64,000 bases of DNA from Daphnia pulex (taxonomy: Eukaryota > Arthropoda > Branchiopoda > Diplostraca > Daphniidae). The DNA is taken from NCBI RefSeq assembly GCF_021134715.1, contig NC_060017.1:6138001-6202000 (forward strand), in the 5' to 3' direction. The translations under genes were made by a program, and so were the position numbers. The notes under the pieces were generated by a model. It did not search any database and was not told the DNA's origin. It saw nothing but the letters and a program-made list of their open reading frames with translations. Shown here piece by piece: positions 18,478 through 46,770 of the stretch. Each line of letters starts with the position of its first letter. Position 1 is the stretch's first letter.

Positions 18478-20035
18478 ATAAACGAGGAGGTGTCGAACGA
18501 GCAGGTCCCTCTTGGACATACAATTATTTAGTTGCATTTTGCTTGAGGTGTGTAGAGTTCAAATATTTTTGAAATTGATGTTTACCCACACAAAGTTGTG
18601 AGGTACGCAAAAACAGGCCTGATCTGCAGTCGTTCTATAAACGAGTTATTTAAATGAACCCTGACTGAATAAACAAAAGCGGCAAGTGAAAACAGTTGCA
18701 GTCAATAACCGCCTAGCTCAGGAATAATCGTACTCCGTACGGCGTACGCCTACTCTGTCACGATTTCTAATCAACGCCAGCAAATAGTCAAAAAGAAGAA
18801 TAGAGAAACAGAGAGTTTTCCTACCTTTAAGCCTAGGAAATTCGGCCAGGCATCACCAAGTGCTCCATCCGCAGTAAAAGTTGAAGACATCAGGCCAGGT
18901 GGGATAGAAAAAAGGACCTCCTCGTGAATAATACCCATACACACTAGGGTGTACACAAGGGTAGAAGGGATTTAAAGAAAAAGAAATTTCTCCAATCAAA
19001 TGGGATGTTTATCTAAATAAAAAATAAAAAAATTGTTACGGCAAATATTTACAGAACACAACAAGTAAGAAAAAGTTGAAAACAAGACAGTGGGTAACCC
19101 CTAATTTGTAATAATCAGGAGAATAAAGTTCCCAAGTAAAAAACTGCATTTATGCAAGTTATGTATCACTAAAATGTCTTTAGCAGGTCACAGGAGATAA
19201 AAGTAACGAATATTATTACCACAGTGATGTTGCTGAAATTGTTGCTGGTGGACCAGCCCAAGCAAAACTTACATAACTTTTTTGTTCGGATGGCTGGCTC
19301 AGGCCTGAAATCTGCACAAAGGAAAAGGTTATAGGCTACATAGTGCAAACAAACTGCCATGCATAAACAGGGGGCTTACACGAAAAATCTAGACTGCAGC
19401 GCACCTAGTGGCCTGACGTTGCTCCAAGCCTCCAGCATAGCTATGCGCTGGCATAGCGCAACGTCAGACTGCAGCGCACCTAGCGGCCTGACGTTGCAAT
19501 AGCCAAAATACACTATAGCAACGTCAGCCTGACGTTGCAATAGCGACGACCGGGCTTACATGATAAACTCTCAATATAAGCTCTAACATTTCACAAATTT
19601 GGAAGTTTTCTATTTAACTCCCATAGTCATTCTATTTGTATTCGCTTCGTTTTATTTACCCGCCAAAAACAGCATGGAATGGAGAGCGTGACAAATTCAC
19701 ACGAGTTCACACCGAGACAACTGCGACAGAGTTCACACGACGACCACATTTTTGTGATTTAATTTGTTCTGCTATTTTTCGTGCATCTACGTGTACGTTT
19801 CCAAAAAAGTGATCGTTTCGTTTTATTTGTAATCTTATTTAAAACAAGTTTGTTCTCCAGTTTTTCGAAACTTGTAAAGCAGACGACACTTTTGACTCTT
19901 CTTCTACCATTCGTCATCTTTTTAAAAGTATCGATAGAAACAATAAAAAATCGACCCCCCCCCTTCTAAATCCAAACCGCTCAAAATCGATCATTAAGCG
20001 GTTTTCTCACCCGCTGAACGGATCGGGAAAGGTAA
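18478..20035 (+). repeat. Duplicated block A (inverted homologue of 43630-46770)
   Basis: Read on the plus strand, this block is collinear with the reverse complement of 46770 down to 43630. Anchor matches: the minus-strand word CCTAGGCTTAAAGGTAGG near 18835 with CCCAGGCTTGAAGGTAGG near 46466; CCTCACAACTTTG near 18595 with the same word near 46632; GACGACCACAT plus GTTCTGCTATTTTTCGTGCA (19739-19784) with the reverse complement at 45671-45717; and TATCGATAG...TCGACCCCCCCC...GCGGTTTTCTCAC (19930-20010) with the reverse complement at 43655-43735. Divergence looks like roughly a quarter of sites by eye. It could be an old segmental duplication or two copies of an interspersed element. No intact ORF is conserved between the copies. 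Confidence 0.8.
19381..19551 (-). mobile_element. 171-bp MITE-like insertion with 9-bp target-site duplication
   Basis: The direct repeat GGGCTTACA flanks the insert at 19372-19380 and 19552-19560. The homologous site in block B (45895-45903, GGTAAGCCC on plus) has a single copy and continues into matching flank, so it acts as an empty site. Read on the minus strand the insert begins GGTCGTCGCTATTGCA; the larger element at 43802 begins GGTCACGCCTATTGCA with identical spacing. Inside are a 31-bp direct repeat with one mismatch (19392-19422 and 19467-19497) and two near-perfect palindromes (GCAACGTCAG c CTGACGTTGC at 19518-19538; one around GCATAGCTATGC near 19435). The other terminus (CGAAAAATCTA...) is more decayed. 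There is no coding capacity, so it must be non-autonomous. Confidence 0.8.
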
Positions 20036-21058
20036 ATTTGCACGAAGCCCGCAAATAATTACTTTTAGACCAAAACCGCCTCAATAAGACCCCCATTGAA
20101 ACACTTTTGGAAGCCAAGAGAGAATGATAGTCAACTTTATACAGTATTAGATTTCGCCATGTCATAACATGTCATAGGCTATAAATTCTAAGTAGCCTAC
20201 AACTGTGACATCGCGTGTCTACAACAGCTGCTTCTTACGCAAGCTTACGTGATCGTTACAGGTGCAACACAATATATTATGTTAACACAGATTAAAAAAA
20301 CTGGTGTTTACCAAAATACCGATAAACCTTATTCTAACCTTGGGTCTTGTTTGTTAAGCGAACAGATAAATTTAAATAAACAACGATATAGGACTTACTG
20401 TAGGCTACTTTCTATTAACAATAACTAGAGATGTCCAACCAAGAGTTGAGCTTATTACTGAGCGGCGCCAGGAATTTTACTCCAATAAGCTGTGGTACCG
20501 AAGGCAGTGTATTTCTCTCTGATACGTTTTGCTTTCAAAATCCCGGCGTGAAAAGTTGTGAAGGTGGAATGTGTACCATGAACATTCCGCAGCTATATGA
20601 AAAATAACACGAAAATGGGGGGGGGGGCAGAAAATATTCGCCTTTTAGGCAGAATCACATCCATTCACTACGCTGTATAAAACACATTCATCACAAAATG
20701 AAACCATTCAAAAAATAATTTCCTTCTGCACGATGAAATAAAAAAAATTGCATTAAACAAGACGGATAACGACATCCAGATTAACTATACATTAATCATG
20801 TCGTGCATTACCCCGTGATGTTATTTTTAAGTCAATCAAATTGCCACTTATTTTGCATTCATGCACCAAACTCAAATTATGCATTGAGGTATTCTTAAAA
20901 AAAAAAAATGATAAAAAAATATTAGTATGTAGTTTCGCCGGATTCCAATCACTCAGTTTCACAAGCAGGGAAAATCCACTACCTCCTCAACACTTTTGGT
21001 CTCCACATAAAATTCTTCTGTTATTTTTGTAACAAATGGAAATCGATACTCTGCATTC
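20036..21058. other. Intergenic DNA 3' of LMAN1
   Basis: AT-rich, with a G9 tract near 20620. It holds the probable 3' UTR of LMAN1 (minus strand). No other feature recognised. Confidence 0.5.
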
Positions 21059-23292
21059 CTAATAAAATTTCTTAGCTTGCGCTTCCTTTGTATCCCTACA
21101 ATATAAAAATAACGGATAAGTAAGATAAGTTCATAGACTTTAAACGGTTAACGTACCTGTAGATGAAATATCCGATCATGATAACCATCTGAATGACCAT
21201 AAAGACAGCAAAGATGGTAGTACTGAGACATGGTTGCGCTGTAGGGCAGGAAGTGACAGGTTGTGCGGCCAGGCGCTGAGCTGTTACACTAATATCTCGT
21301 TTAATTAAATTTAGTCCCTCTTTGACTTCATTCAAACTATTCTGAACGTGATCGTAACCGATGGGCTGTGCAGACCCGCCCACCTGTTTACCCTGATTCT
21401 GAACGATGGTGGCAGTTCGTTGATGGATTTCGGTGACGTATGCCCTAAACAACAAACGATTAGACATCCGTAATTTTTCAGAAAAGGTTCAGTTCTAATT
21501 TACTTGATTTCTCGAGCTGCACCAACGATTTCACGCTGATTTGCGAGAGCTGTATCGACTTCGTGGCGCCGAAGAACGTCGCCACCTGGAACTTGACCTG
21601 TTACACTAGGTTGCGCGACTCCGCCAACTGCATAATAAACGGTACAGATTATATGGGCTTGGCTTTAACTACACTACCAAAATGTAGGAAATAAAAACAA
21701 ACCTTGGTTAGTTTGAATGGCTGACATCAGGCTGAGTGTCCGTTCTTGACGTCCAACAAGGTCGTCCATTTTGCGCTGAATATCCCGCAAAGCATCAAAC
21801 ATTTTGCTCTGTCCAGCGAAAATTTGTCCTAACTCGCGCTGGTTATCAGTTTCAAACCATTCCTCTGGATTTTCCATTTTGCCAGTATCAGCCTCATCTG
21901 GATGAGCCTGTCGGTATCTAAATTGGACGAAAACGATTAAAACCAAAATTCAAACCGAACCGAACAAGAGCCTTACTCGTCTTTCTGCTTCTGTAGTTTA
22001 TCTTGATAATCCTGGAATTCTTGTGAGAGCTTCGCACGTTCATCTTCAGGAATATGAGGTTCGTTTGTACCGGTGGAGTCAGAGCTTTGCAAATTGTAAG
22101 TGAGGAATTTAAGGGCATCGTGATCATCTACAACAGCACGTGATGACGCTTTAAAATTATTGTTCATTTCGATATAAAAATATGTTGATTATTACCAGCA
22201 AGACCACCAGTTGCAGCAGTGACACCAAAGTATCCATACTTTGGCAATACGACATTTTCGACCCTGAAACACATTTCGTAATCTTGTTCGTTGTTTGACA
22301 TTCCATTGTGAAACATAACCTATACAATTAAGAATTTGAGAATAATACTGAAGAACAAATGAAAGCAATTGGGAATAATATACCGAAAGCGTGTTGTGGT
22401 AGTACTCTATTTTGGCTCGAACTGGAAACGGTTTGTTTCTGAAATCTCTCAAACAACCGGCTAACTGTTGCGTAGAACCATCCCTAATGAACGTGATAAA
22501 GTAATGTTATCACTATGTTATTTTTATTCCTAATTAATTCATTTAAGCTTACAGCTGATGAGAATAGGATTGAGATCCATCATTTGTCATTGCCATGATA
22601 AAGGGATTGTTGTGTTTGTTGTCATTATCAAAGGAGTCAAAGAAAAGACCCAGACCGTTCCAGTTATCATTGGAACCAAACACAGGCCCCTCAACACCTT
22701 TGCTCTCTGTATACCACAAAGCCTATAAAAGAAAACATTTTTATAAACCACAAATAAAAATAGACAATACGATAATCAATTGAGCAGCAATTTTTAAGAA
22801 GTCAAATTCAAAAACTGTACCAAGCCATCAGCTCCAATTCTTCCACGACCAGTTACTCTAAACACCAACTCAACCTCCCACCATTCAAAATCAGTTGGCG
22901 TTCTAGTCCAAATTTGGCCTAAGTATTAACAATCAACATTCAATAGTGGTATTGCCTAAAATTACGTTCAATATAATTGCATCTTTACCTTTTTGACTTC
23001 TGAGAGATGGAGTGATTCGGACCATTTCTTCATTGGCAATGGCATCTTTTTAATGAATTGAAACAAAAGTTAAGGATTAGAATTGAGTAAACACATGACA
23101 TCACTAATAAGAGCACGTCTTACTTCCTGAGTATTCCCAAAACGGAACACTTCCATCTTTTTGCGCCAAGTAAGGTGGCTTAAAACTGTACTTGTACTGA
23201 AAGCTCCGGAATGGATTTTGAGCGTTGATACTATTAAACAAAAATACAACAGCTAAACCAACAAGTAGTTTCCATCTGGCCGGCAGTGCCAT
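21059..23292 (-). CDS. LMAN1: ERGIC-53 / LMAN1, L-type lectin cargo receptor
   Basis: Eleven exons, all in frame: 23292-23124, 23045-22989, 22918-22821, 22722-22553, 22483-22384, 22319-22196, 22127-21977, 21917-21703, 21627-21504, 21444-21157, 21095-21059; 510 aa, the same length as human ERGIC-53. It is a type I membrane lectin cycling between ER and ERGIC that carries high-mannose glycoproteins out of the ER. A signal peptide (about residues 1-25, ending INAQ) is followed by the leguminous-lectin-like domain (about 30-270) with GNAIANEEMVRITPSLRSQK, the metal/sugar loop NDNWNGLGLFFDSFDNDN and CFRVENVVLPKYGYFGVTAA. Then come a coiled-coil stalk, a Cys pair before the membrane (SCPTAQPC, equivalent to the oligomer-forming cysteines of the family), one transmembrane helix and the cytosolic tail ending KKFY. 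The vertebrate tail is KKFF; K-K-aromatic-aromatic keeps both ER retrieval and COPII export signals. Confidence 0.97.
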
Positions 23293-23797
23293 GTTGGAAC
23301 TCGGTAAGAGAGATCCCCAAGAAGATCAAGACGGGATCGCCGAAAAGACACTTCGAAATGACAGGTATCTACCGGAGTCTGTGGAGAGGGAAAAATGTCT
23401 AATCGATTTCTTAAACTTTCTTAAATTCAGAATTTAAATTGAATGAATTCAGGGCTCACAACGAAGAAATTTGAGTATGAAAAATATATTGGAATCAATT
23501 TTTTGGCAGCCAAAATTAAATATTAGTGAATTATTATATAAAACGATATAAATTAGAACTTCTCGCATTCGCGCTGCTAGAAAGAATAGGGAAGTTTTCT
23601 TCATTTTCCGCCGGCATCGCCGCATTTCTGCTCGAATTACGATGACGTGTGATTTCGCAGCCGGAATTTTTCCTGTCTGGCAACGTCGTTTGTTTTTCTT
23701 TTTTCTTCTTTTCTTAAACATTTTTTGTTATCATTTGAAGTTAGAATTTTGTTGGTATCGGCTGTCACTGATTGTGTCATTTTGTAGAATAGTTAGA
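23293..23797. promoter_or_regulatory. Shared divergent promoter region of LMAN1 and granulin
   Basis: Only 505 bp separate the start codons of two head-to-head genes, so both promoters and 5' UTRs must lie here. No clear TATA box is seen. Bidirectional activity is inferred from spacing only. Confidence 0.5.
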
Positions 23798-24595
23798 ATG
23801 CGGTGTGTAATATCTTTGCTAGTAGCGATGTTCTTAGTTGTGATTGTAAGATCACAAAACAACGAATATTCTGTTGGTGATATCTATAGAAAATCAGAGA
23901 ACTTCACAACAGGAAAAGATAGAATTGATTGTCCAGGTTCAATTTTTGTTATGACATTTACCAGAACACAACATTTATTTATATTAATTTTGTAATTGTT
24001 TAGGAGATAAGAAGCAAACTTGTGCTGATGGATACACATGCTGTGAGAGTCCATCAGGTGATTACGCCTGTTGTCCACATTTGAATGCTGTCTGTTGTGA
24101 GGATCACATTCATTGTTGTCCTCAAGGTTCTTCATGTGATGTTGGTAGATGTAAAAAAGTAATCTAAATTAAATTATTCTTGCTTAAACCAAAATTTAAT
24201 CTACAACTATCATTATGTTTCTATTGTTTTTAGGACAAAAAAGACAACAATAACTTGATTGATATGTATGGGTATCCCATATTTACCATTGATGATATGA
24301 TGAACAGTCTTGAGAGGATCAGTCACTCTGTATGTCCAGGAGATGAATTTCAGTGTCCTTTACAAACCACTTGTTGCAAGCTTTCTGGGGGAAAGTTGTA
24401 TGGGTGTTGTCCCTTTGAGGAGGTATTTAGTTAACCAAACCTTAATTTTTAAAGCCTGTGATTTAATTAACTTTTATTCAGGGTGTTTGCTGTTCTGATG
24501 AGCTTCATTGCTGTCCCAAAGGATTTGAGTGTACTCCTGAAGAGACTTGTGTTCATTCCAGTAACTCTACCATTCCAATCTCAACTATCAATTAA
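23798..24595 (+). CDS. Small secreted granulin (two granulin domains)
   Basis: Four exons: 23798-23936, 24004-24158, 24234-24422, 24482-24595; 198 aa. Granulins are secreted, disulphide-stacked growth/lysosomal peptides. An N-terminal signal peptide ([20 protein letters not shown]) is followed by two complete 12-cysteine granulin modules: about residues 46-98 (DCPG...C...CC...CC...CC...CC...C...C, with [12 protein letters not shown]) and about 130-185 (VCPGDEFQC...[12 protein letters not shown]...C). They are joined by a Cys-free linker of about 30 residues rich in Asp/Asn. Vertebrate progranulin has 7.5 modules, so this is a short form. A longer open frame upstream of 23798 lacks a signal peptide, which favours this ATG. 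It converges on the HECW gene, whose stop lies 266 bp away. Confidence 0.95.
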
Positions 24596-24605
24596 TTTTC
24601 TGGTC

Positions 24606-24611
24606 AATAAA
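24606..24611 (+). terminator. AATAAA polyadenylation signal of granulin gene
   Basis: AATAAA 11 bp after the granulin stop codon; the closest match in the short convergent interval. Confidence 0.7.
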
Positions 24612-24860
24612 ATATAATCTCAACAAGTGCAGAATTTATGCTTTTAAATTCACAATGTATTTTTGCGACATTAGAATAAATCAATTATTCAAACGACACC
24701 AAGTTCTCGGCTTTCTTGGGAGTTGAAAATAACATGAAGCGCTGACTAGGACGGTACCGGTCATAGCTTTTGGTACTTGTGTCTTGGCACTGCATGCAAT
24801 CAACATCTTTTGTCATTTTCATGGACGAATTAGGAGGAACAAAAACAAGTGTGCTCTATA

Positions 24861-30102
<5,242 letters not shown>

Positions 30103-31376: not shown

Positions 31377-34300
31377 ATGGGTTACAGTCATTTGTTCAAT
31401 TCCTTACGGAGTCTTAAAGTCCCAACAACCCGGTTACATAAATGTTTTGGCGTGACTAAGCGAGCGGCCTATTCTGCGTTGGCCAACACAAGTGAAGCAA
31501 GAGTACACGTTGGAATAAATGATCTTTCAGTCGGCTCCGAGTACGAAGGTTTTCAAGTCAAATCGATTCAAGAAGTGCAAGATCTTGCCCTGACTGCTGT
31601 GCGACTCTCTCACCTGAAAACAGGGGCCGACTACCTGCACATTGCCAGAGAAGATTCCAACAATGTTTTCTGTGTGGGATTCAGAACTACTCCAAAAGAT
31701 TCCACTGGAGTCTCCCACATTCTTGAACACACAGTTTTGTGTGGAAGCAAAGAGTATCCAGGACGAGATCCTTTCTTTAAGATGCTCAACAGATCATTAT
31801 CGACATTCATGAATGCCATGACCGGACCAGATTACACCATTTACCCCTTTTCCAGTCAAAATTCAAAAGATTTTAAAAATCTCTTGTCTGTCTACTTGGA
31901 TGCAGTATTTTACCCTCAGCTTCGAGAATTGGATTTTCTTCAGGAAGGCTGGAGGCTTGAAAACGAAAACCCTTTATCTCAAGAAACCCCTCTACAATTT
32001 AAAGGAGTTGTTTTTAATGAGATGAAAGGTGCTTTCTCTGATGCCTCTTATGGTTTAAACCAACATGTTATGAGGAACCTACTGCCCAGCCACACCTATG
32101 GAAACTGTTCTGGAGGGGATCCTCCCAAAATCTTGGATTTAACCTGGCAGCAATTAAAGGACTTTCATGCCAAACATTACCACCCAAGTAATTCCAGGTT
32201 TTACACTTATGGCAACATGCCGCTGAAAGAGCATTTACAATTCATCAATCAAAACTACTTGAAAAGTTTTGAGAAAATCGCTCCCAGTGAAGAAGTCCCG
32301 AACGAAAAACGGTGGAGCCAACCTCGACGAATCAACATCGAAGCGAGAGAAGATCCCTTCGCAACAAATCCCGAGAAACAGACATCAGCTGTTGTAAGTT
32401 ATGCCCTTTCAGACATCAACGACTTGTATGAAACTTTCGTGCTGCAAATCTTGGGCGAACTTCTGACTGGAGGTCCAAACTCACCTTTCTATCATAATTT
32501 GCTTGAACCAAATATTGGCACAGGCTACTCACCCGTTACCGGATTCGATAGCCACACCAAGGACACTACCTTTACTATTGGCTTGCAGGGCATTCACAGC
32601 AAAGACGTGGACAAAGTGCTGGGTATCATCCGCTCTACATTTGAGGAGGTTGCCCGAACTGGGTTTCCTGCTGAACGAATTGAAGCTGTTCTTCACTCGA
32701 TCGAGCTGGCCGTGAAGCACCAAACTTCAAATTTTGGTTTATCAATGGCTATGAATTTGACGCCACTATGGAACCATGGAAGTGATCCAGTGGAAGCCTT
32801 GTACATCAATTCAAAAGTGGAAAAATTCCGACAAAATCTACATGAGAATCCCGACTACTTGAAGAATAAAGTTCGCCAATATTTCATTGACAATACCCAT
32901 CAGCTAGTGGCAGTCATGCAGCCGGACAAGGAATTTGAAACCAAATTAGAACGAGAAGAAAAATCCATTCTCGAAGCCAAATGTCAGGGCTTGAGCGAAG
33001 AAGACAAGACTTTGATTTTCGCTAAAAATCAAGAGCTTATAGCCATGCAAAACAACGTGAATGACACTGAATGTCTGCCGACACTTCAACTGAGCGACAT
33101 TTCCACCCAAGCGGAGCGAGTGCAGCTAGATACCGTGAAACTATTGGGAGTTCCTGTTCAGGTGGCTGTTCAACCAACCAATGGCATCACATACTTTCAC
33201 GGTGTTTTGAACACTTCGGGCTTGCCTGAGAAACTTAAAATCCATTTGCCTTTGTTCTGTATGGCTGCCACGAAAATGGGTGCAGGCGACATGGATTATC
33301 GTCAGCTGGATCAACAGATCGAGCACAAAACCGGTGGATTGTCTTTCGGTTTACATTTGACTGAAGGGCCCGGTTCAGTCCAATCTTACGAGCAAGGAAT
33401 TGCGTTTTCATCCCACTGTCTCGATCGAAATCTCCCCGACATGTTCCAGCTATGGCAGTCCATCTTCAACCGACTCCGCCTGGTAGACGAAAACAGACTG
33501 GAGACGCTCATCCGCAACTTGGTGGGAGATTTGGGCAACAGTTTGACCCATTCCGGACATCATTTCGCCATGACTCACGCCGGATCTTCACTCACACCGA
33601 CGGCTCACTTGAAGGAATTGGATGAAGGAGTGACGTACATCAGGCGGGTGAAGGCCATTGCTGAAACCAATCAATTTGAGCCACTGTTGGAGTGTATGCA
33701 CGAAATTGCCAAACATGTGCTGGTGAAGAACAACATGCGCTGTGCGCTCAACATGACGGCCGATTCGCAAGAAGAAGCTACTAAGCACTTGGAAGGTTTC
33801 GTGTCTTCAGTCAAAGGATCGCCAATCGACCAAGCGTTGTGGACTGTTGATAGCGAATTCCAACCAGCCGTCCAGCGCACCCATTATGTGTTGCCAGTTC
33901 CTGTCAACTTTACTTCCAAGGTAGTTCCTGGTGCTCCTTACCTATCGCCAGATTTCGCCCCGCTACGAGTTCTCGCCGGAATCATGTCGTCCAAATTCCT
34001 GCATCCTGAAATCAGAGAGAAAGGTGGAGCTTACGGAGGCGGTGCCGCCGCATCCGCCACGGGACTCTTTTCCTTCTACTCGTATCGCGATCCCAAATCG
34101 CTGGAAACCATCGACACCTTTGATCGAGCCGTCGAGTGGGCCCTTAAGGCCAACTACAACGAGGAGGCGATCAAAGAAGCCAAACTTCGAGTGTTCCAGA
34201 AGATCGATGCACCAACTCCGCCGTCTGGCAAAGGGATGAGACTCTTCCTCAGTCACATCAGCGACGAGCAATTCGCCGCCCAACGCCAGCAGCTGATTGA

Positions 34301-34433
34301 TGTAACCAAAGACGATCTCGTCCGAGTTTGCCAAGATTACCTTCGCCAGCCGGCCGTCCATGGCGTCACCATCATTGGCCCCCCAAACGACATTACAACG
34401 AGAGATCCTTCGTGGAACGTTGAATTCTCTTAA
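31377..34433 (+). CDS. PITRM1: Presequence protease, mitochondrial (M16C metallopeptidase), single exon
   Basis: 1018 aa in one uninterrupted exon; human PITRM1 is 1037 aa. It degrades cleaved mitochondrial targeting peptides and other short unstructured peptides (including amyloid-beta in mammals) in the matrix. An N-terminal presequence rich in Arg/Lys/Ser (about residues 1-35) is followed by the inverted zinc motif HxxEH at H114-E117-H118 (SHILEHTVLCGS). The distal ligand Glu215 lies in FNEMKGAFSD; the H118-E215 spacing of 97 equals that of the human enzyme. Other family landmarks are RDPFFKMLNRSLSTFMNAMT, WRLENENP and, near the C-terminus, REKGGAYGGG. The ATG at 31377 supplies a targeting-like leader. 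All catalytic residues are present. The lack of introns across 3 kb is unusual beside intron-rich neighbours. Confidence 0.97.
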   Translation: MGYSHLFNSLRSLKVPTTRLHKCFGVTKRAAYSALANTSEARVHVGINDLSVGSEYEGFQVKSIQEVQDLALTAVRLSHLKTGADYLHIAREDSNNVFCVGFRTTPKDSTGVSHILEHTVLCGSKEYPGRDPFFKMLNRSLSTFMNAMTGPDYTIYPFSSQNSKDFKNLLSVYLDAVFYPQLRELDFLQEGWRLENENPLSQETPLQFKGVVFNEMKGAFSDASYGLNQHVMRNLLPSHTYGNCSGGDPPKILDLTWQQLKDFHAKHYHPSNSRFYTYGNMPLKEHLQFINQNYLKSFEKIAPSEEVPNEKRWSQPRRINIEAREDPFATNPEKQTSAVVSYALSDINDLYETFVLQILGELLTGGPNSPFYHNLLEPNIGTGYSPVTGFDSHTKDTTFTIGLQGIHSKDVDKVLGIIRSTFEEVARTGFPAERIEAVLHSIELAVKHQTSNFGLSMAMNLTPLWNHGSDPVEALYINSKVEKFRQNLHENPDYLKNKVRQYFIDNTHQLVAVMQPDKEFETKLEREEKSILEAKCQGLSEEDKTLIFAKNQELIAMQNNVNDTECLPTLQLSDISTQAERVQLDTVKLLGVPVQVAVQPTNGITYFHGVLNTSGLPEKLKIHLPLFCMAATKMGAGDMDYRQLDQQIEHKTGGLSFGLHLTEGPGSVQSYEQGIAFSSHCLDRNLPDMFQLWQSIFNRLRLVDENRLETLIRNLVGDLGNSLTHSGHHFAMTHAGSSLTPTAHLKELDEGVTYIRRVKAIAETNQFEPLLECMHEIAKHVLVKNNMRCALNMTADSQEEATKHLEGFVSSVKGSPIDQALWTVDSEFQPAVQRTHYVLPVPVNFTSKVVPGAPYLSPDFAPLRVLAGIMSSKFLHPEIREKGGAYGGGAAASATGLFSFYSYRDPKSLETIDTFDRAVEWALKANYNEEAIKEAKLRVFQKIDAPTPPSGKGMRLFLSHISDEQFAAQRQQLIDVTKDDLVRVCQDYLRQPAVHGVTIIGPPNDITTRDPSWNVEFS

Positions 34434-34528: not shown

Positions 34529-34559
34529 CTCTTGATTTGCACACAAGCATGATGTTGTC

Positions 34560-34583: not shown

Positions 34584-34594
34584 GTTCAATCGTC

Positions 34595-36182
34595 ATGGAA
34601 TTCTTAAATGGGCAGTGTGAGGGAGAGGACATCTTTTTTGGCGAGATCGTGCAGCTTTTGTCAAACTTTAATTGGATCTACAAGTCGCGCAATACCGACA
34701 TTTTAGCTGATGACATTCTAAATTGCATTCCCAAGTCTTGGATTCCTATTTTTCAATTGAATTGTTTGGACAATATTCAAACGGCCATCAAGGGTGACAC
34801 TAAAGTATAATTGTTAATTTAGCAGTGGCACTCAAAAGTTTGAAAAGTAAAATAATTTTAGAATTTGTTTCCCGTTAGTCGTCATGGCCACCGGATCTTT
34901 CCGATTTGGTGACACGGTGCTGGCGCCTTTCATTGTGGATAGACTCCAGTAGAAAGCCGGAAGTCACTTCGAAATGGAAAAAAGTCAACCCGAAGAAAAT
35001 CCACGAAGTCCTGAATTTCGCTCAGCTGATTGGTGAGAAATGCGCCGAGAAACAAATCCAACATGTCGTCGACATCGGAGCTGGTTTGGTATAATAGAAT
35101 TGCCATTTCGATTTTTCATTTGCATATAATTCCGCTATTGATCAATTTGAAGGGATACTTGGACAAAGAGCTATCGGATCATTGGGACCTGCATGTACTT
35201 GGACTTGAACGAGATGCTTATAGAGTTTTGGCGGCCAGTCAACGGACCAGCAGTGACACAAAAGAAAACACGGCGAATCGATGCCGTTCCACTTTCAAGG
35301 AGTTGGCAGTGAAAGCCGAAAATTCCTTAGAGGATCAAATCGAATCCGTTATTGGCGACTGGTTCGATGAACTCAAAGCCCAACGCGAGTCCGCCCCGCT
35401 ACTCTGTATGATTGGTTTGCATTCGTGTGGGGATCTGAGTCCTGTGATGATGAAACTATTTATCAACAGCCGTCGCTTCCGCACTCTCCTGTTGGTGTCG
35501 TGTTGCTATCACAGGATGGAATGGAAGAAAGACCTACCACTAGCGGATGAGAATTTATTTCCACTCAGCTCGAGTCTGAAAAATGCCAGTCATATTGTAC
35601 CCTTCCATCAGCAGGAAGGCATTCAACATCTCTTCCGCTTGGCTGCCCAAGAAACACCCAATCGCTGGATGCAGCAAAACACCGTCAACTGTCAACTTCA
35701 AGCACAGCACACCTTCTACCGATCTATAATCCAACTCTACGCTGCCATTGGTTAATAAATTTAAAAATAATTACGACATGTTGATTGAAAATTATAACGA
35801 GAATGTCCTTTTTTGTTGGTTTCTAGAAAATATTCAACTGCTAAAACGGCAGAGGAGACCGGTCAAAACGCACAACATCTCCGACGTTTTTGAAGAGTAC
35901 GTCGACCAGGTCATCGATGGGTTTGGATTAGAAGGAGACGTCGCCGGCCACCGGGAGAAATTGGTGAACATTTATCGATCCAACGCACATCTTCTACCGG
36001 CACTGGAGACTCTGATAGTTTTACAAGCACTTTTCCAGCCAGTTGCCGAGGCGTTGATCCTCGTCGATCGAGTAGTCTACCTAAAAGAAAACGGACTTTC
36101 CGCTACTTTGCGACAGATATTCGATGACCGCATTTCACCGCGATGTTTTGTCACCATTGCAGAGAAACTAGAGTCTCCATAA
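34595..36182 (+). CDS. METTL25B: METTL25/METTL25B (RRNAD1)-family methyltransferase-like protein
   Basis: Four exons: 34595-34804, 34879-35088, 35153-35750, 35827-36182; 457 aa (human METTL25B 475 aa). The family has a class I SAM-dependent methyltransferase fold of uncertain substrate. Landmarks: N-terminal helical region; 'KKIHEVLNFAQLI' before the SAM motif I VDIGAGLGYLDKELS (split by intron 2, about residues 133-147); LCMIGLHSCGDLSP and the following VSCCYHRMEW (about 275-315); and the family C-terminus ending in ALETLIVLQALFQPVAEALI and YLKENGLSATLRQIFDDRIS. The gene begins 162 bp after the PITRM1 stop on the same strand. METTL25 rather than METTL25B is possible; the length fits METTL25B better. 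Confidence 0.9.
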
Positions 36183-37162
36183 TCATCTGACATCTCATTT
36201 TATTCAACTGTAAAAATTGTTGCAAATTTAAGCCGACTGATGGCAACCAATTGAGAATAAAAGTCTGAAAGAGTTGCACAACCCTTTAAATCAAACTCCC
36301 GCTCAAAATTGTATTTAAAACCCATCCTTTCCTCACCTAGCGCGCGCGTTGCGTCATATGTAAATAGGAGACCGTGATAACGGGAACTGGGTAATACACT
36401 TCCCCATCGCTTTCTCCTCTTTCTTCCTGCGGCTATATCGATGTATGCGTAGAGCAAACTACAAAGTTCAGTTGTTTGGAATCAAAAAGAAGAAACAGCA
36501 GACGTTCCACTTGTTTGCTTTTGGTCCCGTTCAGTTGATATCTACTTTTTAGTGTCTTTTCGACTGGTGTAAACGTTGGAACTAAATTATTACATCTTTC
36601 TTTGTATAACAAACGAAAATTTTTCGACTTTATTTGTTTATTACGCATTGAAATTTAATAAGTAAAGAAATGAAATTTGTTGTTACATGGCTGTGTTGTG
36701 CCGTATAAGCAGCTATTTCCTTGACACGTGTAAGACCAAATAAGATAAGCTGTATAAATAGTTTTTATTTTGGGTAACTTTCTGACAGTGCATATGGTAG
36801 CCTTCATTTCAGAGTTTTCTTTATCCCCGAGGCTAGAATCATTATGGACATATGCAAGCAACTTGTGGCCTTCAGCTACGTTATTCGCAATCGATATTTT
36901 AAATATTTAATTATATTTTTATTAAAATATGAAAATATGAAATAATTGATTAACGTTTCCCTTAAATGATTTTGACTTTTGCCAAGTTCACTGTACAATA
37001 AAGAATACTAGAAATTTATTCCTATTTTCCAACGGCCTACGTGCTTCCTACTAGTTCTTATATGTTTTGAATTGAATTTTACAAGTCACGTAGTCTGTTG
37101 CTGGTCTTTATTCTCTTTTTGATCCTTGGCAAGGTTAGTTCTTCTTAAACTGCGATTGAAGA
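36183..37162. other. Intergenic region upstream of urate oxidase
   Basis: AT-rich apart from a CGCGCGCG run near 36342. It holds the 3' UTR of the METTL25-like gene and the urate oxidase promoter; nothing else is recognised. Confidence 0.5.
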
Positions 37163-38447
37163 ATGTCGACTTACAAGATCGTGGATGATGCTTACGGTAA
37201 TACCGATATGAATTTTTTACGTTAATAAGTTGATTTACACATTACAATCTTGTTTTTACAGGTAAATCTGGGGTGAAACTGTTGCACATCAAACGTGATG
37301 GACCTGTCCATTCCATCAGAGAATTGGAGGTCAGCAGCCAGTTGACATTGTCTTCCAAGAAGGACTACACTGAAGGTAAAACCATAAATTTAAAGATGAA
37401 ATTGTTCGTATAATTTCATGAAAATAAATTTTTATTTCAGGCGACAATTCCGACATCGTCGCCACCGATTCCCAGAAGAACACAGTCTATCTTCTGGCTA
37501 AGAAACACGGTGTCAACAGCCCCGAAGAGTTTGCCATCCTCCTATGTCGCCATTATCTCAGCACCTATGCTCACGTACTGAAGGCCCAAGTCCAGATTGA
37601 GCTCTATCCATGGCAGAGGATCGATGCCGATGGAAAGAAACACAATCACGCGTTCGTGTTCACACCTGTGGCCACTCGCTTTTGCGCCGCTCGCATGGAG
37701 AAAAACGGTTAGCTATAATTTACGCCTCAAAATAAAATTCAATTTATCTTGATTGGAATATTTTTGCACAGGAATTCCGACTATCGAATCAGGACTGAAA
37801 GATCTGCGCGTGTTGAAAACGACCCAATCCGCTTTTGTCAACTTCGTCAACGACGATTACCGTAAATATTTCAATTAGCCCAAAATTCATTTTTTGAATT
37901 AATTGATGAAAATATTCAACAGGTTCCCTGCCCGATGCCAGTGATCGTGTCTTCAGTACCGTGATTACTTCACGATGGGAATACTCAACGGTTAATGTCG
38001 ACTTTTGTAAAGCTTGGTATTTTATTTAAGACCAAAAGCTATTTAATGAAATAATTAAATACGAAATTGCTTATTCATTCAGGAATACGGTAAAGGATGC
38101 CATCATTAAAGTGTTCGCCGGACCAGCGGACAAGGGCATCTACTCGCCATCAGTTCAGAACACTTTACATCTCACAGAGAAACTGGTGCTGGATTCCGTT
38201 CCTGAGGTATCATATTCTTATCTCATTTCTTAAAATTTGACTATGTTTAGTGTTTCATATTTGCTGTTGCGTATTTCAGATTAATTATATCGAAATGATC
38301 TTGCCAAACAAGCACTACATTAACGTAGACTTGTCGAAATTCAAGAATGTCGGATTCGCCCACAACGATACCGTCCTCCAGCCACTGGACAAACCATCGG
38401 GCAACATTCGAGCAGCTTTGACCCGTACCCTGGCCTCAAAATTGTAA
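37163..38447 (+). CDS. Uro: Urate oxidase (uricase), peroxisomal
   Basis: Seven exons: 37163-37196, 37262-37375, 37441-37707, 37772-37861, 37923-38016, 38083-38206, 38280-38447; 296 aa, normal family length. It oxidises urate to 5-hydroxyisourate with O2 (no cofactor), the first step of urate breakdown. Two T-fold halves are visible. The conserved YGK (K13) and VATDSQKNT (T58) supply the catalytic dyad. Other signatures are [30 protein letters not shown] and [11 protein letters not shown] (active-site His). The protein ends in ASKL, so the last three residues SKL form a perfect PTS1 peroxisomal import signal. All key residues are intact, so urate should be degraded in this animal, unlike apes. 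Confidence 0.97.
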
Positions 38448-40127
38448 AAAAAAAAAAATAATTCCAAGAATTCAATTGAACGCCGGCCCATTGAGGGTAA
38501 AATTATGAAAGTTTGGTTGTATAAGAAAACGGTTACATGTTGTAAAAGGTATCTTGTTAGTTCTTTGGGGGAAGACATGCCGTTTCAACAGAAAGTAAAA
38601 AAAAAAAAGTACACTCGTCGGTCAACCCGGAATATGCCTAATTGGATTTCTTCTTTTATGTTGCATAAGGACACGGTTTCTAGGCAGATGAGATACTGGC
38701 ATAACAACGTTTCCAGGGAACTCTTGATTCCTGTGTCCAGTTTCTTTTTATAAAAAGATCCGTGGATAGTACACGTTGGTGATTTGAACCACATAATTTC
38801 AGTTATTTTAAAGTCTCTTTGAAAGGCCCAAATGAAGTTTGCTGTCGCTCTCTGAAAACTGAAAAGGAGTGACAACTTGACGGGAAAAGGCCTATGTAGA
38901 CTGTCACGCGTGTTGAATTATTGATCAGTATTTTTACAACTTTGAAGGAAAAAAAAAATAACTTCTTTAACATGCAATCAAGTGTGAATGGTCGTGATTG
39001 TCGTGACAATCTTGCGGGTTGCGGCGGGAAAATCGATGGCTTCAAAAGTAGTAGGCTGTTTGTCGGGCTTTGAATCGATTTGCGGCCGCAAACACGACGA
39101 GTCTTGTCAAACATTCGGTATAGGATATGTTGAGGATGCCAATCAATTGCCAAAAGGAAAAAGTTAGCCTCTTTTTTAATAATACGCTTCGCTGCTCGGA
39201 TACCGAAAGATGTCAAACTTGTTATTACACATTTCTTATGTCATATGAAAAGAAACGAATTGACTATATTGTGCGAGAAATGTGAGCCGAGCGCGAGTCT
39301 ATTGCTTCACTCTTTGTAGTGGTGCGTGTGTGTATCGATCGATCTGTTAACTGTTCCTGATTGATCGGGTGGTACACGGTTCGCATTAAAACAGGAAGGA
39401 AAAAAAGAAATTGCTTAGACGTTAGTCAACTATTTTTCATGAGAAATGTTTGGCTGACAGGTTTCTCATCGTTCTGAATTCTAATTTATGTACATAGTTA
39501 GACGTCTTATTTGGTTGTTAAAAAGGCAAAGATGAAATTGTTGAAAAAGTTTAAATTTGAATTTCCAATCTAATAAAATATTTGGAGTTCCAGGGAAAGT
39601 ATTAAAAAGGCTAACATTTTTTAATCAATCCTATCTTCAGGCGAACCATCAAATAGTGCACAAAAAATTTTCTTTTTCTTTTTTAAAATTCACCCTGGAC
39701 TAACCTTGGGGAAAACTAATTACCAACATTCCTGAACAAGGGAATAACCCACCCACCTTTTTTTTTAAAAAGAAAAAACCAAAACATTTCCTTTACTAAA
39801 TTTCAAAAGGCAAACAAAGTACCGAGCAGAGTGACAGTGAAAGTTCGCCGGGTAGAATATAAATCGGAATGAAAAAGGAGCAAATAAGTCTGCGGAGGCC
39901 AAGGGGAGAGAGAAAGCAAAAATAAGAAATAGGTAGTAGAGAGGTTGAAAAAAGGTAAGAACAAAATAAAATGTTGCTCATGTGTTTTCGCCTGAAGGAG
40001 TTTTAACGACAGAAAAGGCATCCCAGACATTCGAAGGACGAGCCGTTGTTGTTGTGCGTACCCAAATAATCTCTTCGGCTACAGGTGGCAACAGGTGAGA
40101 GCGCCTAGTTTCGTCTCAAAGGTAAAC
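38448..40127. other. Intergenic region upstream of kynureninase
   Basis: No gene recognised. Several A-rich runs, and a GTGCGTGTGTGTATCGATCGATC stretch near 39322. Transcription of kynureninase presumably starts in the last few hundred bases. Confidence 0.5.
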
Positions 40128-42452
40128 ATGGACAAGTCGCACGAATCGATCGCGGCGGCAAACGGAATAACGCAACAGCGCCAACATGTAAGTCCTTCTC
40201 CCTCCAAACATTTGAAATGTTTATTAAGCCTATACTTCGTTTATGTAATATATCTTTAGGTTGAGCTGACGAACACCTTGCAAAAGTGGGGCGATAGTTT
40301 CGGTGTCACCTTGGAAAGTTTGGAATTCGCCAAGCGAATGGATGCCGTCGACCCGCTTCGAGATATCCGAGCCAATTTCACCTTCCCCACGATGAAAGAT
40401 TTGCCTTGTGGTAAATAGATTTAGATCCTTTAAAAATGTGATGAAATAATGAATTATGGATTGATTTGTAACAGTGGATCAGTCGCTTGTTGAAAATCTT
40501 GACGAGGAATGCATTTACCTGTGTGGAAATTCTCTCGGTCTCAAACCCAAACGTGCCGATGCCTACCAACAAGACGTTTTGAATTGCTGGGGTAAATTGT
40601 AAGTTTGTTTTTCTGTTGAACAAATAATCCGCTGCTTCCGGTTTTATATTAACCGACTATTTTTTGGACAGGGGTGTATTCACCCATTTCACTGGGCGCT
40701 TCCCTGCCGCCCAGTGCGATTTACTGGTCAAAGACTCTTTGGTGAAACTGGTGGGTGCCGGGCACTCGGATGAAGTCGTTTGCATGAACGGCCTGTCGGT
40801 CAACATTCATTTGCTGCTCATTTCCTTCTACCGGCCGACAGCCAATCGCTACAAAATCATGATTGAAGGCCACGCTTTTCCTTCCGACCGAGTAAAAAAC
40901 GATTGAAAAAGAAATTGCCATTATTATTATTTTAATAAAGTTATATTTTTTTTTAAATTTCTAGTACGCAGTTGTATCGCAATTGAAATTGCACGGTTAC
41001 ACGGAAGAGGACGGATTGGTTATTTTACAAACTAGACCGGGTGAGCATCTTCTCCGCACGGAGGATATTTTAGCGGCTATTCAAGAGCACGGGCAAAGCG
41101 TAGCCGTCGTCTTCTTGTCCGGAGTTCATTATTATACAGGTAATTAAGAATATATTTCAATTAATATCTATGACTTGTCAGCTTTGTGATTTCAGGACAG
41201 AAATTTGACATAGAGACGATCACAAAGAGCGGCCAAGCTCAAGGATGTCTAGTTGGATGGGATTTGGCTCACGCTGCAGGCACGATTTTCTTAATTGTGC
41301 TTTGTTTTCTTAATTAATGAAGCAATCGATATCATTTCAAATTCCTGCAGGCAACATCGAGTTAAAACTTCACGACTGGTCAGTGGATTTCGCCTGCTGG
41401 TGTTCTTATAAGGTAAAACATCTCATTAATAAACAATTACTTTTAAATATTTTGATAGTATGTAATCCAAATGGAATTAAAAAGAAGCTCTATCCTAACT
41501 CTGTAATTAAAAAGTTTGAAGTAATTCCTTGATAAAAAGTTTGAAAAGAATCACAACAAGATAAAAGCAAAGTTTCTTGATATTATTTCAGGTACTGCAG
41601 TCTACTTTTAAAATGTTCCATAGCAGCCCAGCGTGTTTTATTTTTATCCATCAAATCCTTTGCTTTATTCACAGTGTAGCTATTCGTTTTAAAAAATGTT
41701 TTGTTTTTTCCAGTATCTGAATTCAGGAGCGGGTTGCATTGCCGGCGCTTTCGTTCACCGAAAACACCATCAAGATGATCGCCCAAGGCTCTGCGGATGG
41801 TGGAGTAATCGCGAAGAAACGCGATTCGATATGCAACATAGTGTCGACGCCGCTCCCGGAGCCGACGCCTACCGTCTCTGCAATCCTCCACCGGCTCTTG
41901 TTGCTTTGCACAAGGCCGGCCTTGAGGTAAACTAAACATATTGCTCCACCTTTTTTTTTTTTAAAATAATACTTTCATGGAAATAGATTATTTAAACATG
42001 TAGTAAACTGATGTTTGAGTGGAATAACAGATCTTTGAGGAAGCCGGGATGGATCGTTTGCTTGCCAAGCAGTATTTGCTGACGGGCTATCTTGAATATC
42101 TCATGGATCATCTGGATCCTGATGCTGGCGAAACTGGAGACGAGAAATTCGTGGAAATTATTACGCCACGTGATCCCCGGCAGAGGGGCACTCAATTGTC
42201 CGTCATGTTCCCGTTCTCCGTCAAGGAGATTCACGAGAAACTGGAGAAAAGAGGAGTTGTGGTTAGTAAATAATTCCCTTTCAATTCTTTCAGGACCGAA
42301 TGAACTTTTCTTTTTTGTTGTACACCACACAGTGTGACGTCCGTTTGCCGAGCGTCATGCGTTTAGCTCCGACGGCGTCCTACAACACATTCACGGATGT
42401 TTATCGATTTTTCACGGTACTGAAGCAGGTGATGATGGAGTGCAGGATGTAG
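40128..42452 (+). CDS. KYNU: Kynureninase (PLP-dependent)
   Basis: Ten exons: 40128-40187, 40260-40410, 40475-40598, 40672-40891, 40965-41139, 41196-41279, 41351-41412, 41714-41926, 42031-42261, 42333-42452; 479 aa (human 465). It cleaves kynurenine/3-hydroxykynurenine to (hydroxy)anthranilate and alanine in tryptophan catabolism, in the cytosol. Landmarks: [67 protein letters not shown] with the PLP-pyridine Asp; PLP Schiff-base Lys at K292 in [24 protein letters not shown]; and [17 protein letters not shown]. The intron after exon 6 (41280-41350) is GC-AG and flanked by a 9-bp direct repeat. Catalytic residues are complete. Confidence 0.97.
41280..41350 (+). other. GC-AG intron of kynureninase bounded by 9-bp direct repeats
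   Basis: The conserved DLAHAAGNIEL is restored only if splicing joins G at 41279 to G at 41351. The intron then begins GC (CTGCAG|GCACG) and ends AG. CTGCAGGCA occurs at both ends (41274-41282 and 41345-41353), offset by exactly the 71-bp intron length. No GT donor fits the frame and the family sequence. Confidence 0.85.
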
Positions 42453-43629
42453 GCGAATCTCGTTATTCCTTTTGACGACAACCATGGCAACTAATATCAC
42501 GGTCATGCTCTTTCAACAGAACAAAAATAAGTTTTAAGTAATGGCACTATAGAAGCAATAGGACATATAGTATACACATGTTATACCCCCCTTTTTGAAT
42601 GAATAAACATAAATATTTGACATTTCTCGAGTTCAATGGATGCACTACGCCACAGGAGACGCATCAAGTGCTCTGATTGAAAGGTAATGCGCTTCAATAG
42701 GCATTCATGCAGGATTATTTTCTCGTATTTTTCTTTGGAGAGAAAATGTAATCCTCTTAAGTGCTCATCTTTTATAGCGAATTCAAGTCCATTGAATGTG
42801 AGCATGTTCTCCGAATGACGCAAGATGTATACTAGCAAGATAATGGATTCTTGTTAGTTTAAACCATTTCACGGTAGATGGATTCAATAAATGTTTACTA
42901 TTCATAGTTGATTGTGAGCGTCAGTAACCTCCGGGTGAGTCTGCTGGCCATTAAAAAGGCTTATTAGCTGAACGATCCGTACGAACCCGCTGAGCGCAAG
43001 TGGATTGTCAACAAATGAAATTTCCTCCAGCAGCGTGTTAAACGGGCCAAACGGTTTCCCGTGATGACAAATTCGTGCAAACTTGAAACGGAAATCAAAA
43101 GACGAATTATTTGGGTTTTTTTTTTTTTTTAATTGACGAGTCTTTTGACCGAAATGTATCGCTCGCAACACGACATCCTTCAAGTTTCTTCTCAGCGGCG
43201 TCTCTATTGTGGTCTCACAAACAGACGGGATCAATACGAGAGAGGGTTGACTGCTGGGCTGTGTTGATAAAAAGGTATCCTAGCTGCCGGTTCCTTGTTC
43301 TATAACGTAAGCTAAGATTGGAAAAATCTCATTTAGAGGAAGAAGAAAAGTTGGTTATTTATTTGTTTGTGCGCGAATCGGGGGCCAAGCAATATGAGAC
43401 TTTGGCTTAATCTAGGTGTACAATATCTAACATGTGTATGATTTAGGGTTGACGCTAGACAGGGGAGCTTCGGGTTCGTTTAAAAATAATTCATTCCTTC
43501 TTTGTTTCCAAGAGGAAATAAATTAATTTAACGTAAATTTCCAAGTAAATTTCTAATCTTGGCTTGTGGATTTGTGGTAGGCTCAGTGTAACTTGATGAG
43601 ACGAACTGTTAGATACTATAAAACTATCC
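42453..43629. other. Kynureninase 3' flank and intergenic DNA
   Basis: AATAAA at 42602-42607, 150 bp after the stop, is the likely polyadenylation signal. The rest is AT-rich with a T14 tract near 43117; no gene recognised. Confidence 0.55.
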
Positions 43630-43792
43630 AGATCCGTTCAACGGATGTCGAGCGTGGTGTGAGAAAACCGCTTTGATAGTTTTTGAATGGTTTGAATTTA
43701 GAGGGGGGGAGGGTCGATTTAAATATCTATCGATATCTTAAAGCATCATTTGGCTAATTAGAAGATTATGTGTCGTCTGCTATCGTACTCGT

Positions 43793-43801
43793 TTAAAAAT
43801 T
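43793..43801. repeat. Left 9-bp target-site duplication TTAAAAATT
   Basis: Identical to 45595-45603 and directly abutting the element ends. The unoccupied homologue in block A reads AACTTGTAA on its plus strand at 19869-19877, matching the reverse complement AATTTTTAA at 7 of 9 bases. Confidence 0.85.
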
Positions 43802-45594
43802 GGTCACGCCTATTGCACTCCGGGGTCCGGAGCGCTCTAGTGTCAAAAGTGGCTATTGCACTCCGGAGTCCGGAGTCCTCTAGCGTCAAAAGTGGCTATT
43901 GCACTCCGGAAATTTATGGCGACGAATTGCAAATAACGACTGATTCTGTGTTTAGACTTTACAATGGTTTTGAATTCATTGAATATTCAATTAAAGGTAA
44001 GAAATAAATTTGCAATGTAATTATAATAACAATCAAATATATTTTAATTTCACTAATAACCACAAATAGCCAGTATAAACGATGGAACTTGGTTAGTATT
44101 GTTAACTTAGCTAGAGTCCACCATTGAATCAGTACCTTAATGTTCAAATTGCAAATATAGTTAAGTGTCTTGCAACATGAATCAATTAGAATTGATAAAC
44201 ATATCAACTCAGGGTGTATTTCTTGATAACCATTTCAACTTCTTGCTCTATTTGCTCAGGTTTCAGTATATTGAACTTTGTTTATGATTATCTCCGCGGC
44301 GTTGGAACCCAAAGCAACCCATCATCAAAGGACAAGGCGCTTCCATATTCCGCTCTTAAAGGATCTTTGATTGACGCCGCACCATGTGCCAATTCTTTCC
44401 CCTCTTAAATCAATTATTTTTTCATTGTCAATTCATTCATGTGATGACAAAGCACCGAGTGAAACTGAACACGAAAATACCAAGTATTTTTCGCACTCAC
44501 AATTCAGTTAAAATGTCTTTTGATATTCTCACTATAATAAAGTAAACTGCATCTGCATGTTAACTTAGTTTTGTATTGTTTTGTTTCAAGATATGAAAGA
44601 CGTGTTTAGCTGTTAGTTTATTGGAATAAGAGACACGGGCATTGCATGGTTTATAGCGTGAAATCAGCTGAATCACACGTTACGTGTCAATCAGCAGAAA
44701 TAGTGAGTTGCTGGTCAATCCGTTTAAAGGTCACAAAGAACCCCTCGAAGCCCCGTTCTGAGAACTCCGGCTCGACCTTCAGGCAAGTAAGGGGGCGACA
44801 GAGAGTGACTCACTATGTCGTGTGTTAATAGCGTGTTTAACAACCTAAATTTATACTTTGAATATAATGATCTCTGTGTAATAGAGCTGAATCACACGTT
44901 ACGTGTGAATCAATCAGCAGAAATAGTGAGTTGCTGGTCAATTCGTTTAAAGGCGGTTTAAAGGTCACAAAGAACCCCTCGAAGCCCCGTTCTGAGAACT
45001 CCGGCTCGACCTTCGGGCAAGTAAGGGGGCGACAGAGGGTGACTCACTATGTCGTGCGTTTATAGCGTGTTTAACAACCTGTTTAAATCCTTACTTTGAA
45101 TATAATGATATAATATAAATAATAACACTGAGCATATAGAGCAAGACATTGAAATGGTTAACAAGAAATATCACCCTGAATTGAAGTGTTTATAAATTCT
45201 ACTTTATTCCTGTTGCAAGACACTTAACTATATTAACAATTTGAATTTTAAGCTGATTCAATGTTGGACATTGTACTCAGTACTCTAGCTAAGTTAACGA
45301 TAACGAAATAAAAGTTCCTTCTATACACTGACTATTTTTATTTATTAGTGAGATTCAAATATATTTGATTGTTATAAATACATTTTATTTGAATTTACAA
45401 ATAATTCAAATCTAAACCATTCAAATTTCAAAACACAGAAACAGAATGCCATCGGTCGCCAAATGAAAGTACTACATATTTCCTTTCCGGAGTGCAATAG
45501 CCACTTTTGACGCTAGAGGACTCCGGACTCCGGAGTGCAATAGCCACTTTTGACACTAGAGCGCTCCGGACTCCGGAGTGCAATAGATTTTACC
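43802..45594. mobile_element. 1.8-kb non-autonomous DNA transposon, Mutator-like (long TIRs, 9-bp TSD)
   Basis: Ends are GGTCACGCCTATTGCACTCC and the complement of GGTAAAATCTATTGCACTCC, abutted by TTAAAAATT on both sides. Terminal inverted repeats are about 450 bp (43802-44251 and 45136-45594). Each begins with a 43-bp unit repeated twice plus a third partial copy (left: 43811-43853, 43854-43896, 43897-43910). The internal 0.9 kb holds a 219-bp-period direct repeat and no transposase. A 9-bp TSD with TIRs of hundreds of bp is typical of Mutator-like elements (MULEs). Foldback elements are an alternative because of the tandem units in the TIRs. Transposition would need an enzyme supplied from elsewhere. 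Confidence 0.85.
44666..45109. repeat. Tandem direct repeat (period 219 bp) inside the transposon
   Basis: AGCTGAATCACACGTTACGTG starts at 44666 and again at 44885 (first 20 bases identical). The copies run on through GAACCCCTCGAAGCCCCGTT and GTAAGGGGGCGACAGAG to TACTTTGAATATAATGAT. The second copy carries a small internal duplication (GTTTAAAGGCG). High identity implies a recent duplication within the element. Confidence 0.85.
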
Positions 45595-45603
45595 TTAAAA
45601 ATT
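45595..45603. repeat. Right 9-bp target-site duplication TTAAAAATT
   Basis: Perfect copy of 43793-43801 flanking the element. Confidence 0.85.
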
Positions 45604-46770
45604 TCGAAAATGAGACAAAAGTTTAAGTTACAAAGAAAATGGAGCGTTTCCTTTTTGGAAAATGCACTGCTGCACGAAAAATAGCAGAACTAATAAAATT
45701 ACAAACATGTGGTCGTCAATTTCCGAATTTCGTCTGGTGTCGCGGTTCTGCTTCTGCATGCTCTCCAGTCCCCACTCCATGCTGTTCAGCAGGTATATAA
45801 ATCTAAGAATGCAAATAGAATTATTATTGGAGCTTAAATATCAGAGAAACCTGTTTCATATTTCTGAAATTTTATTACCTGACTAGTATTTATTGGTAAG
45901 CCCCCTGTAGATGCATTGCAGTTTATTTGCACGGAACCCTTTTTGCAGATTTGAGGTCTGGAGCCAGCCATTATAACCATAAGATCTGCCAGTTTTGCTT
46001 CTGTTGGTCATTGACCTGTCACCAACAATAACAATCTCAGTATAACTTGGGTATAATTTTTGTTATTTTTATTAATCTGAGACCTGCTAGTCATGTAAGT
46101 GATGCATATGACTTGCATAAAAGCAGTATTTTCCATGTAAACCTTAAATTCTGCTGTTTATTCAACAATTATGGTTTACACACTGTGTCATTTTCAACTT
46201 TTCCTTCCTCATTATTTCTGTCAATATATATTTATCGTAACCCATTTTTTTATTTTTGGTTTTAGATAAACAGCATCCTGTTTCATTGGAAAACTCCCGA
46301 TGTCGGTAGTTCCCCTTTCTATAAATTCACTCTGCCCCCGTGTACACCCATGTGAAGGGGGGTATAAAATTCACAAGGACCCCATTGCCTTTCCTGTCTG
46401 GCGTATTCAACTTTTCTACGAATGGAACACTTGTGAATGCCTGTCCGTATTTCCCAGGCTTGAAGGTAGGAAAAATTCTCTAATCTTTTTTCTTCCTTTT
46501 TGACTATTTGATTTCCTGCGTTGATTATTAATCGTGACATTGTACGAAATACGATTATTCCTTAGCTATAGCCGGTTGACTGTTTCCCCACTTGCCGTTT
46601 TTGTTGACTCAGTCAGGGCCCAGTTTTTTACCTCACAACTTTGTCCGTGGGTAAACGATCGAATTCAAAAATATTTTAACTTAAACAACTTCAAGCAAAA
46701 TGCAACTAGAAAAATTTATGACCAAGAGGGATCTGCCGTCACAGCAGCACCTCTTCGTTATGAGGTTATT

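Follow-up and report, generated by a model that had tools for sequence, protein, structure and literature searches.

Blocks A and B, two inverted sequences in a window of 64,000 nucleotides of Daphnia pulex DNA (contig NC_060017.1), are very probably old, independent copies of one rolling-circle transposon family of the Helentron/Helitron2 type, each of which was later hit by an element of the MULE superfamily that left a 9-bp target-site duplication (TSD). Together they are a clear instance of nesting among transposons of known kinds, and an ordinary one. The coordinates of the features are compiled in Table 1. Here we present the extent and the genomic family of the host repeat, its ends and coding relatives, the two inserts, and the order in which these sequences may have arrived.

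Table 1. Features of blocks A and B, of the flank of block B and of related loci elsewhere in the assembly
Feature	Position	Strand	Remarks
Block A, non-coding repeat copy of about 1.47 kb	18481..20126	-	5' end at about 20126, 3' end at 18481; 38-row alignment and located end motifs
3'-side subterminal inverted repeat TCCCTCTTGG, block A	18506..18515	+	25 bp from 3' terminus; alignment majority
TSD GGGCTTACA, copy 1	19372..19380	+	9 bp, perfect
MULE-type element, 171 bp	19381..19551	+	10 bp from one terminus, CGAAAAATCT, fused to 161 bp from the opposite one (...AGCGACGACC)
TSD GGGCTTACA, copy 2	19552..19560	+	9 bp, perfect
Block B, second Helitron-like repeat copy	43492..46759	+	5' end at about 43492, 3' end at 46759; self-BLAST, alignment, end motifs
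TSD TTAAAAATT, copy 1	43793..43801	+	9 bp, perfect
Non-autonomous MULE-type (foldback-like) element, 1793 bp	43802..45594	-	termini GGTCACGCC and GGTAAAATC
TSD TTAAAAATT, copy 2	45595..45603	+	9 bp, perfect
Block B flank common to C1:6386283-6387188	46800..47722	.	about 0.92 kb, 88%; only two places found
Helitron Rep domain	C11:5889330-5889910	-	inside 11.9-kb end pair
PIF1 fragment	C11:5886795-5887037	-	inside 11.9-kb end pair
Coding MULE/Rehavkus-like copy L065	C9:155607-162603		
Coding MULE/Rehavkus-like copy L066	C3:125514-132348		
Coding MULE/Rehavkus-like copy L067	C5:259027-265861		

Two copies of an interspersed repeat

The original prediction described A and B as collinear blocks in inverted orientation, and self-BLAST of the window aligned 18477-20010 with 46762-43659, collinear and inverted, with E values down to 3.9e-28 and interruptions at the sites claimed for the insertions. 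The homology of the blocks stands, whereas their limits had to be moved, the shared repeat being slightly longer than described. Without its insert and one copy of the duplication each block amounts to 1466 bp of host repeat, the copy in B being split by its MULE-type element.

An alignment of 38 rows was built from A, B and 36 other loci, which are all of the listed matches to the left part of the repeat; as the core sequences of L034 and L056 do not differ, 37 of the rows are distinct. Mean column identity rises from about 0.3 to about 0.7 at 18480, stays at 0.67-0.88 up to about 19670 and then declines gradually to about 0.36 near 20100; one edge of the repeat is sharp (at about 18480) and the other diffuse (near 20100). 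In this alignment the insert of A was excised with a 10-bp shift to the right, and row B is without most of both copies of its duplication; some 10-20 of about 1470 columns are affected.

The assembly searched comprises 133,188,837 bases in 13 contigs. With block A as query at least 103 matches were obtained (40 of 726 candidates scored), block B not being among them. Patterns derived from the repeat ends occur at 138 places for the left and 100 places for the right end, and not once in the reversed-pattern controls. Pairing of all 100 right ends with 100 of the 138 left ends gave five pairs spaced at 441-538 bp, ten at 1256-1466 bp and single pairs at 2.1, 6.1 and 11.9 kb, the left end in the 6.1-kb pair also belonging to a 496-bp pair. 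The original prediction had named a segmental duplication and an interspersed element as the two possible origins of the blocks, and the genome-wide search answers this with a dispersed, interspersed family.

Had a single segmental duplication in inverted orientation produced A and B, with a later transposon hit in each, they would also be homologous and inverted, and they lie about 23 kb apart; such an origin is nevertheless extremely improbable. No match between A and B was found outside the repeat at E 1e-5 in the self-BLAST of the window, and this absence of a shared flank rules the duplication out. The right-end patterns are, moreover, spread over all 12 large contigs, and with an identity of 0.760 (76%) in the aligned core A and B are marginally less alike than the average family pair (0.772, 703 pairs), so that A and B are ordinary family members, no closer to each other than random pairs. 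Copies of the repeat diverge by about 23% on average. Because the match between the blocks ends with the repeat and the left-end pattern recurs at 138 places, A and B are interspersed copies and not an inverted duplication; no special meaning was found in their inverted orientation.

A known RNA gene was ruled out as the identity of the repeat, as no Rfam family reaches its gathering score anywhere in the window. The sequence TATCGATA is present near the 5' end of the repeat in both blocks (19929-19936 and 43728-43735), with TATCGAT as the majority sequence at this site in the 38-row alignment; we take this motif to resemble the DREF promoter motif.

Ends and coding relatives of the host repeat

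Read on the element strand, the majority letters of the aligned ends give a repeat that starts with TATTCCCTCTTGGCTTCCAAGAGGG and ends with ..CCAAGAGGGACCTGCCGCCACACCGGCACCTCCTCGTT. A 9-bp stem can form at the 5' end (z -3.15), and a subterminal inverted repeat, CCCTCTTGG, sits 4 nt from this end. On the 3' side a possible palindrome TGCCG..CGGCA precedes the end by about 10 bp; its stem is weak, with z -1.65 and an equally good fold in 16 of 200 shuffles. The very ends differ from each other, and on one side the inverted repeat lies inside the terminus. At 15 end pairs (14 of 37 loci and the element on C11, several with weak end matches) no target duplication was detected above shuffles, the mean direct repeat being 1.93 versus 1.83 in shuffled sequences, with 203 of 500 shuffles equal or higher.

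Relatives that combine Rep and PIF1 sequences with the ends of the host repeat were observed directly. The 11.9-kb end pair, C11:5882447-5894362, encloses a Rep domain and a PIF1 fragment in the expected order and orientation. On C10 a 5' end (10040582), a Rep domain (10042565, 56% identical to that on C11) and a PIF1 fragment (10045626) lie in line; a 3' end of this locus was not found among the end matches listed. Rep sequences 55-100% identical to that of C11 occur at four places, C11 included, and repeat ends are nearby at two of the four; at C10:9218875 (Rep 79%) and C10:6648010 (Rep 55%) no repeat end was nearby among the ends listed (100 of 138 left ends). Chance co-location of Rep and repeat ends was rejected with P=0.004 for two or more cases under random placement of the right ends, at an 8-kb distance limit chosen after both loci had been seen and with all 100 right but 100 of the 138 left ends covered. 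The coding relatives on C11 and C10 look degenerate, and in these degenerate elements neither a PF14529 endonuclease (150 of 228 candidates scored) nor a PF03372 endonuclease (150 of 178) was found. The Rep motif reads RGALHAH. Elsewhere, at C12:4569708-4652113, a span of 83 kb contains four stop-free Helitron frames of 1790-2068 aa with Rep and PIF1.

The end architecture, the lack of a detected target duplication and the 11.9-kb relative, in which these ends flank Rep and PIF1, suggest that the host repeat is a non-autonomous Helitron-like element with ends of the Helentron type, an end type that also bears the name Helitron2. Because an endonuclease was not found, the repeat is filed under Helitron-like elements of the Helentron/Helitron2 end type and not as a strict Helentron. 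Its copies would have moved by a rolling circle.

Alternatively, the repeat might be a cut-and-paste element, such as a long MITE with imperfect ends, or belong to another class. The inverted TCCCTCTTGG common to both ends and the diffuse right edge in the alignment would agree with this, and DINE-1 was itself formerly classed as a MITE, according to the part of PMC2374699 available. The subterminal position of the inverted repeat on one side, the unlike termini, the lack of a target duplication above shuffles and the presence of Rep+PIF1 with the same ends at two loci nonetheless make a cut-and-paste origin unlikely, and the assignment to Helitron-like elements is retained.

Among described systems, the repeat resembles the Helentron-associated interspersed elements (HINEs, DINE-1-like), as far as these are covered by the available part of PMC4067079: it is non-coding and dispersed with no detected target duplication, it has subterminal inverted repeats, one of them palindromic and very near the 5' end, it may carry a small palindrome near the 3' end (with a weak stem here), and Rep/helicase relatives share its ends. 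It differs in the distance of the 3' subterminal repeat from the end, 25 bp as compared to 38-60 bp in mite HINEs (PMC4067079), and in that the copies studied here are old and divergent. The RGALHAH motif matches neither the Helentron nor the Helitron form in the portion of that paper available, and the coding relatives are further set apart from Helentrons by the lack of a detected endonuclease. The HeliDaphNA elements of D. pulex are also non-autonomous Helitrons of this species, listed at 27 to 389 copies in the section of PMC2884549 available, and were compared by description only.

The two inserts and their coding relatives

Both insertions were observed directly, with their ends, their duplications and the dispersal of their families as well as that of the host repeat. 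The 1.8-kb element predicted in B and absent from A proved to be 1793 bp long, and the 171-bp element predicted in A is indeed absent from B. Perfect 9-bp duplications accompany both, and those of B fall exactly at the predicted outer limits of 43793-45603; each block offers the empty site of the other, and the element ends were read to the base. At the site in A no other row (37 in all, B and 36 loci) exceeds the insert-free A by more than 40 bp; one exceeds it by 38 bp. That two separate insertion events took place was part of the original prediction; it can be added that the same kind of element was involved, with related termini and a 9-bp duplication in both.

Ends and duplications were scanned in 27 sequences by a script that retained the end pair with the best duplication. 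Perfect 9-bp duplications were found in 17 of the 27 and one with a single mismatch in L067, and no end pair was returned for nine (A, L052, the host-repeat locus L056, L069, L071-L074 and L076), the duplication of A having been read directly. Paired elements carry a GGTAAAATC-, CGAAAAAGC- or CGTGAAATC-type end on one side and a GGTCACGCC-, GGTCGTCGC- or GGTCGACCC-type end, followed by a TATTGC motif, on the opposite side. Judged by their 9-bp duplications, which fall in the MULE range of 8-11 bp, and by their related termini, both inserts belong to the Mutator (MULE) superfamily.

The insert of B has inverted arms of about 455 bp that are 78% identical, with 43-bp tandem repeats in each arm. 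It is 97.6% identical to the copy L057, and differs by about 2% from the nearest copy found. Its coding relative was likewise observed directly: three copies of a coding element (L065-L067) measure 6835-6997 bp, and the insert is about 95% identical to most of their first 1213 bp and to their last 162 bp or so. A stretch of about 300 bp in the inner 3' arm of the insert has no counterpart in the coding element other than an inverted copy of the 5' arm, 79% identical, so the insert is not a simple deletion product; in terms of its sequence it is a shortened and rearranged relative of the 6.8-7.0 kb element. The insert also contains a tandem duplication of about 205-225 bp (44666-44871 and 44885-45109, 88%), and parts of this unit, 44666-45109, match several other places in the genome at 68-72%.

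The insert of A appears from its sequence to belong to a sister family of the B insert. Between its positions 11 and 171 it is 98.8% identical to one end of the 1659-bp element in L053. It could have moved at its present size or have shrunk after arrival, and probably it landed as a full element of about 1.6 kb that then lost its interior at this site by deletion: of one arm 161 bp are retained and of the other just 10 bp, the three A-type copies with both ends located (L053-L055) measure 1606, 1606 and 1659 bp, and no second match spanning all 171 bp was found among the matches listed (40 of 726 candidates scored). Inverted arms promote internal deletions. Against this, other short copies may exist beyond the candidates scored, and 10 bp of one end together with the other end might be enough for the element to move.

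Among the coding elements, L066 and L067 are 99.97% identical over 6835 bp, and this near-identity suggests that elements of the L066 type (MULE/Rehavkus-type) have been active recently. L066 has domains above cut-off for ZSWIM3_N, ZSWIM1-3_RNaseH-like (67.3 bits, cut-off 27.2), MULE (28.0 bits in the next frame piece, cut-off 27.6) and Peptidase_C48 (Ulp1). A SWIM match (18.9 bits, cut-off 19.6) and a PHD match in the C48 frame (21.8 bits, cut-off 24, E 1.9e-4) remain just under their cut-offs. L065 has ZSWIM3_N, RNaseH-like/MULE and C48 domains above cut-off, without the SWIM and PHD pieces. A minisatellite in L066 (6873-7586, period 162, 4.4 copies) precedes the 3' end repeats at 7741-7841, and the element in L065 exceeds that in L066 by exactly 162 bp. 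C48 and MULE frames on the same strand, 1-5 kb apart, recur at C7:4246014/4250729 and C5:5163109/5164995. The three coding copies are each located within 270 kb of a contig start and have different target duplications; L065 directly adjoins a frame with BTB and BACK domains (L065:7917-8819).

The 9-bp duplication, the long inverted ends, the MULE-type RNaseH-like domain and the minisatellite directly before the 3' inverted end are shared with Rehavkus, as described in the available part of PMC6446971, and the candidate PHD finger (here just under cut-off) would be a further feature in common. The L066-type element adds ZSWIM3_N, a SWIM-like motif and Ulp1 (C48), which the same part of that paper does not mention for Rehavkus, and in its eukaryote-wide 2019 survey the hosts of Rehavkus are confined to insects and annelids (PMC6446971). 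Phantom-type Mutator elements of the same superfamily are known from D. pulex itself, where MutatorA1-A10, as given in the available part of PMC2884549, were compared by description only.

Order of events and genomic surroundings

The flank of block B is shared with C1:6386283-6387188 (L038), a locus that carries the host repeat without the 1.8-kb insert. In the repeat B is 0.821 identical to L038, as compared to a mean of 0.751 to the rest, and the flanks of the two are more alike than their repeats. Since L038 shares flank and repeat, is without the insert and is nearer to B than the rest, the most likely order would be the host repeat first, then a local duplication together with its flank, and then the MULE-type insertion into B. 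Within the flank, identity to C1:6386283 is 98-99% at 47503-47700 versus 78-82% at 47104-47303, the latter segment containing a minus-strand frame that by eye resembles a small secreted cysteine-bearing peptide.

In the reading favoured here A and B would have inserted independently, as copies of one dispersed, non-coding Helitron-like family, and a Mutator/MULE member would have been cut and pasted into each copy much later. B would have taken up the foldback-like, non-autonomous relative of the 6.8-7.0 kb coding element, presumably moved by the transposase of the latter, and A a member of the sister family, of 171 bp at present.

Neighbouring host genes in the window include an ankyrin gene (16391-17929), a HECW-type HECT ligase (25039-28370), a PreP-type M16 peptidase (31377-34433), a methyltransferase (35030-35755) and an S28 peptidase (59360-60079).

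For two transposon families of a model crustacean the termini and the rules of insertion are thereby fixed, and a relative chronology of Helitron-like insertion, local duplication and MULE insertion is obtained. Of greatest interest is a sequence beyond the window, the coding relative of the B insert, in which MULE, Ulp1, PHD-like and minisatellite features are combined. Tentatively, this partner might be a recently active crustacean element that joins features kept separate in the literature covered, namely SWIM/FLYWCH-type MULE transposase domains, Ulp1, a PHD finger and a minisatellite before the 3' end, and it could connect the canonical MULEs (Phantom) with Rehavkus.
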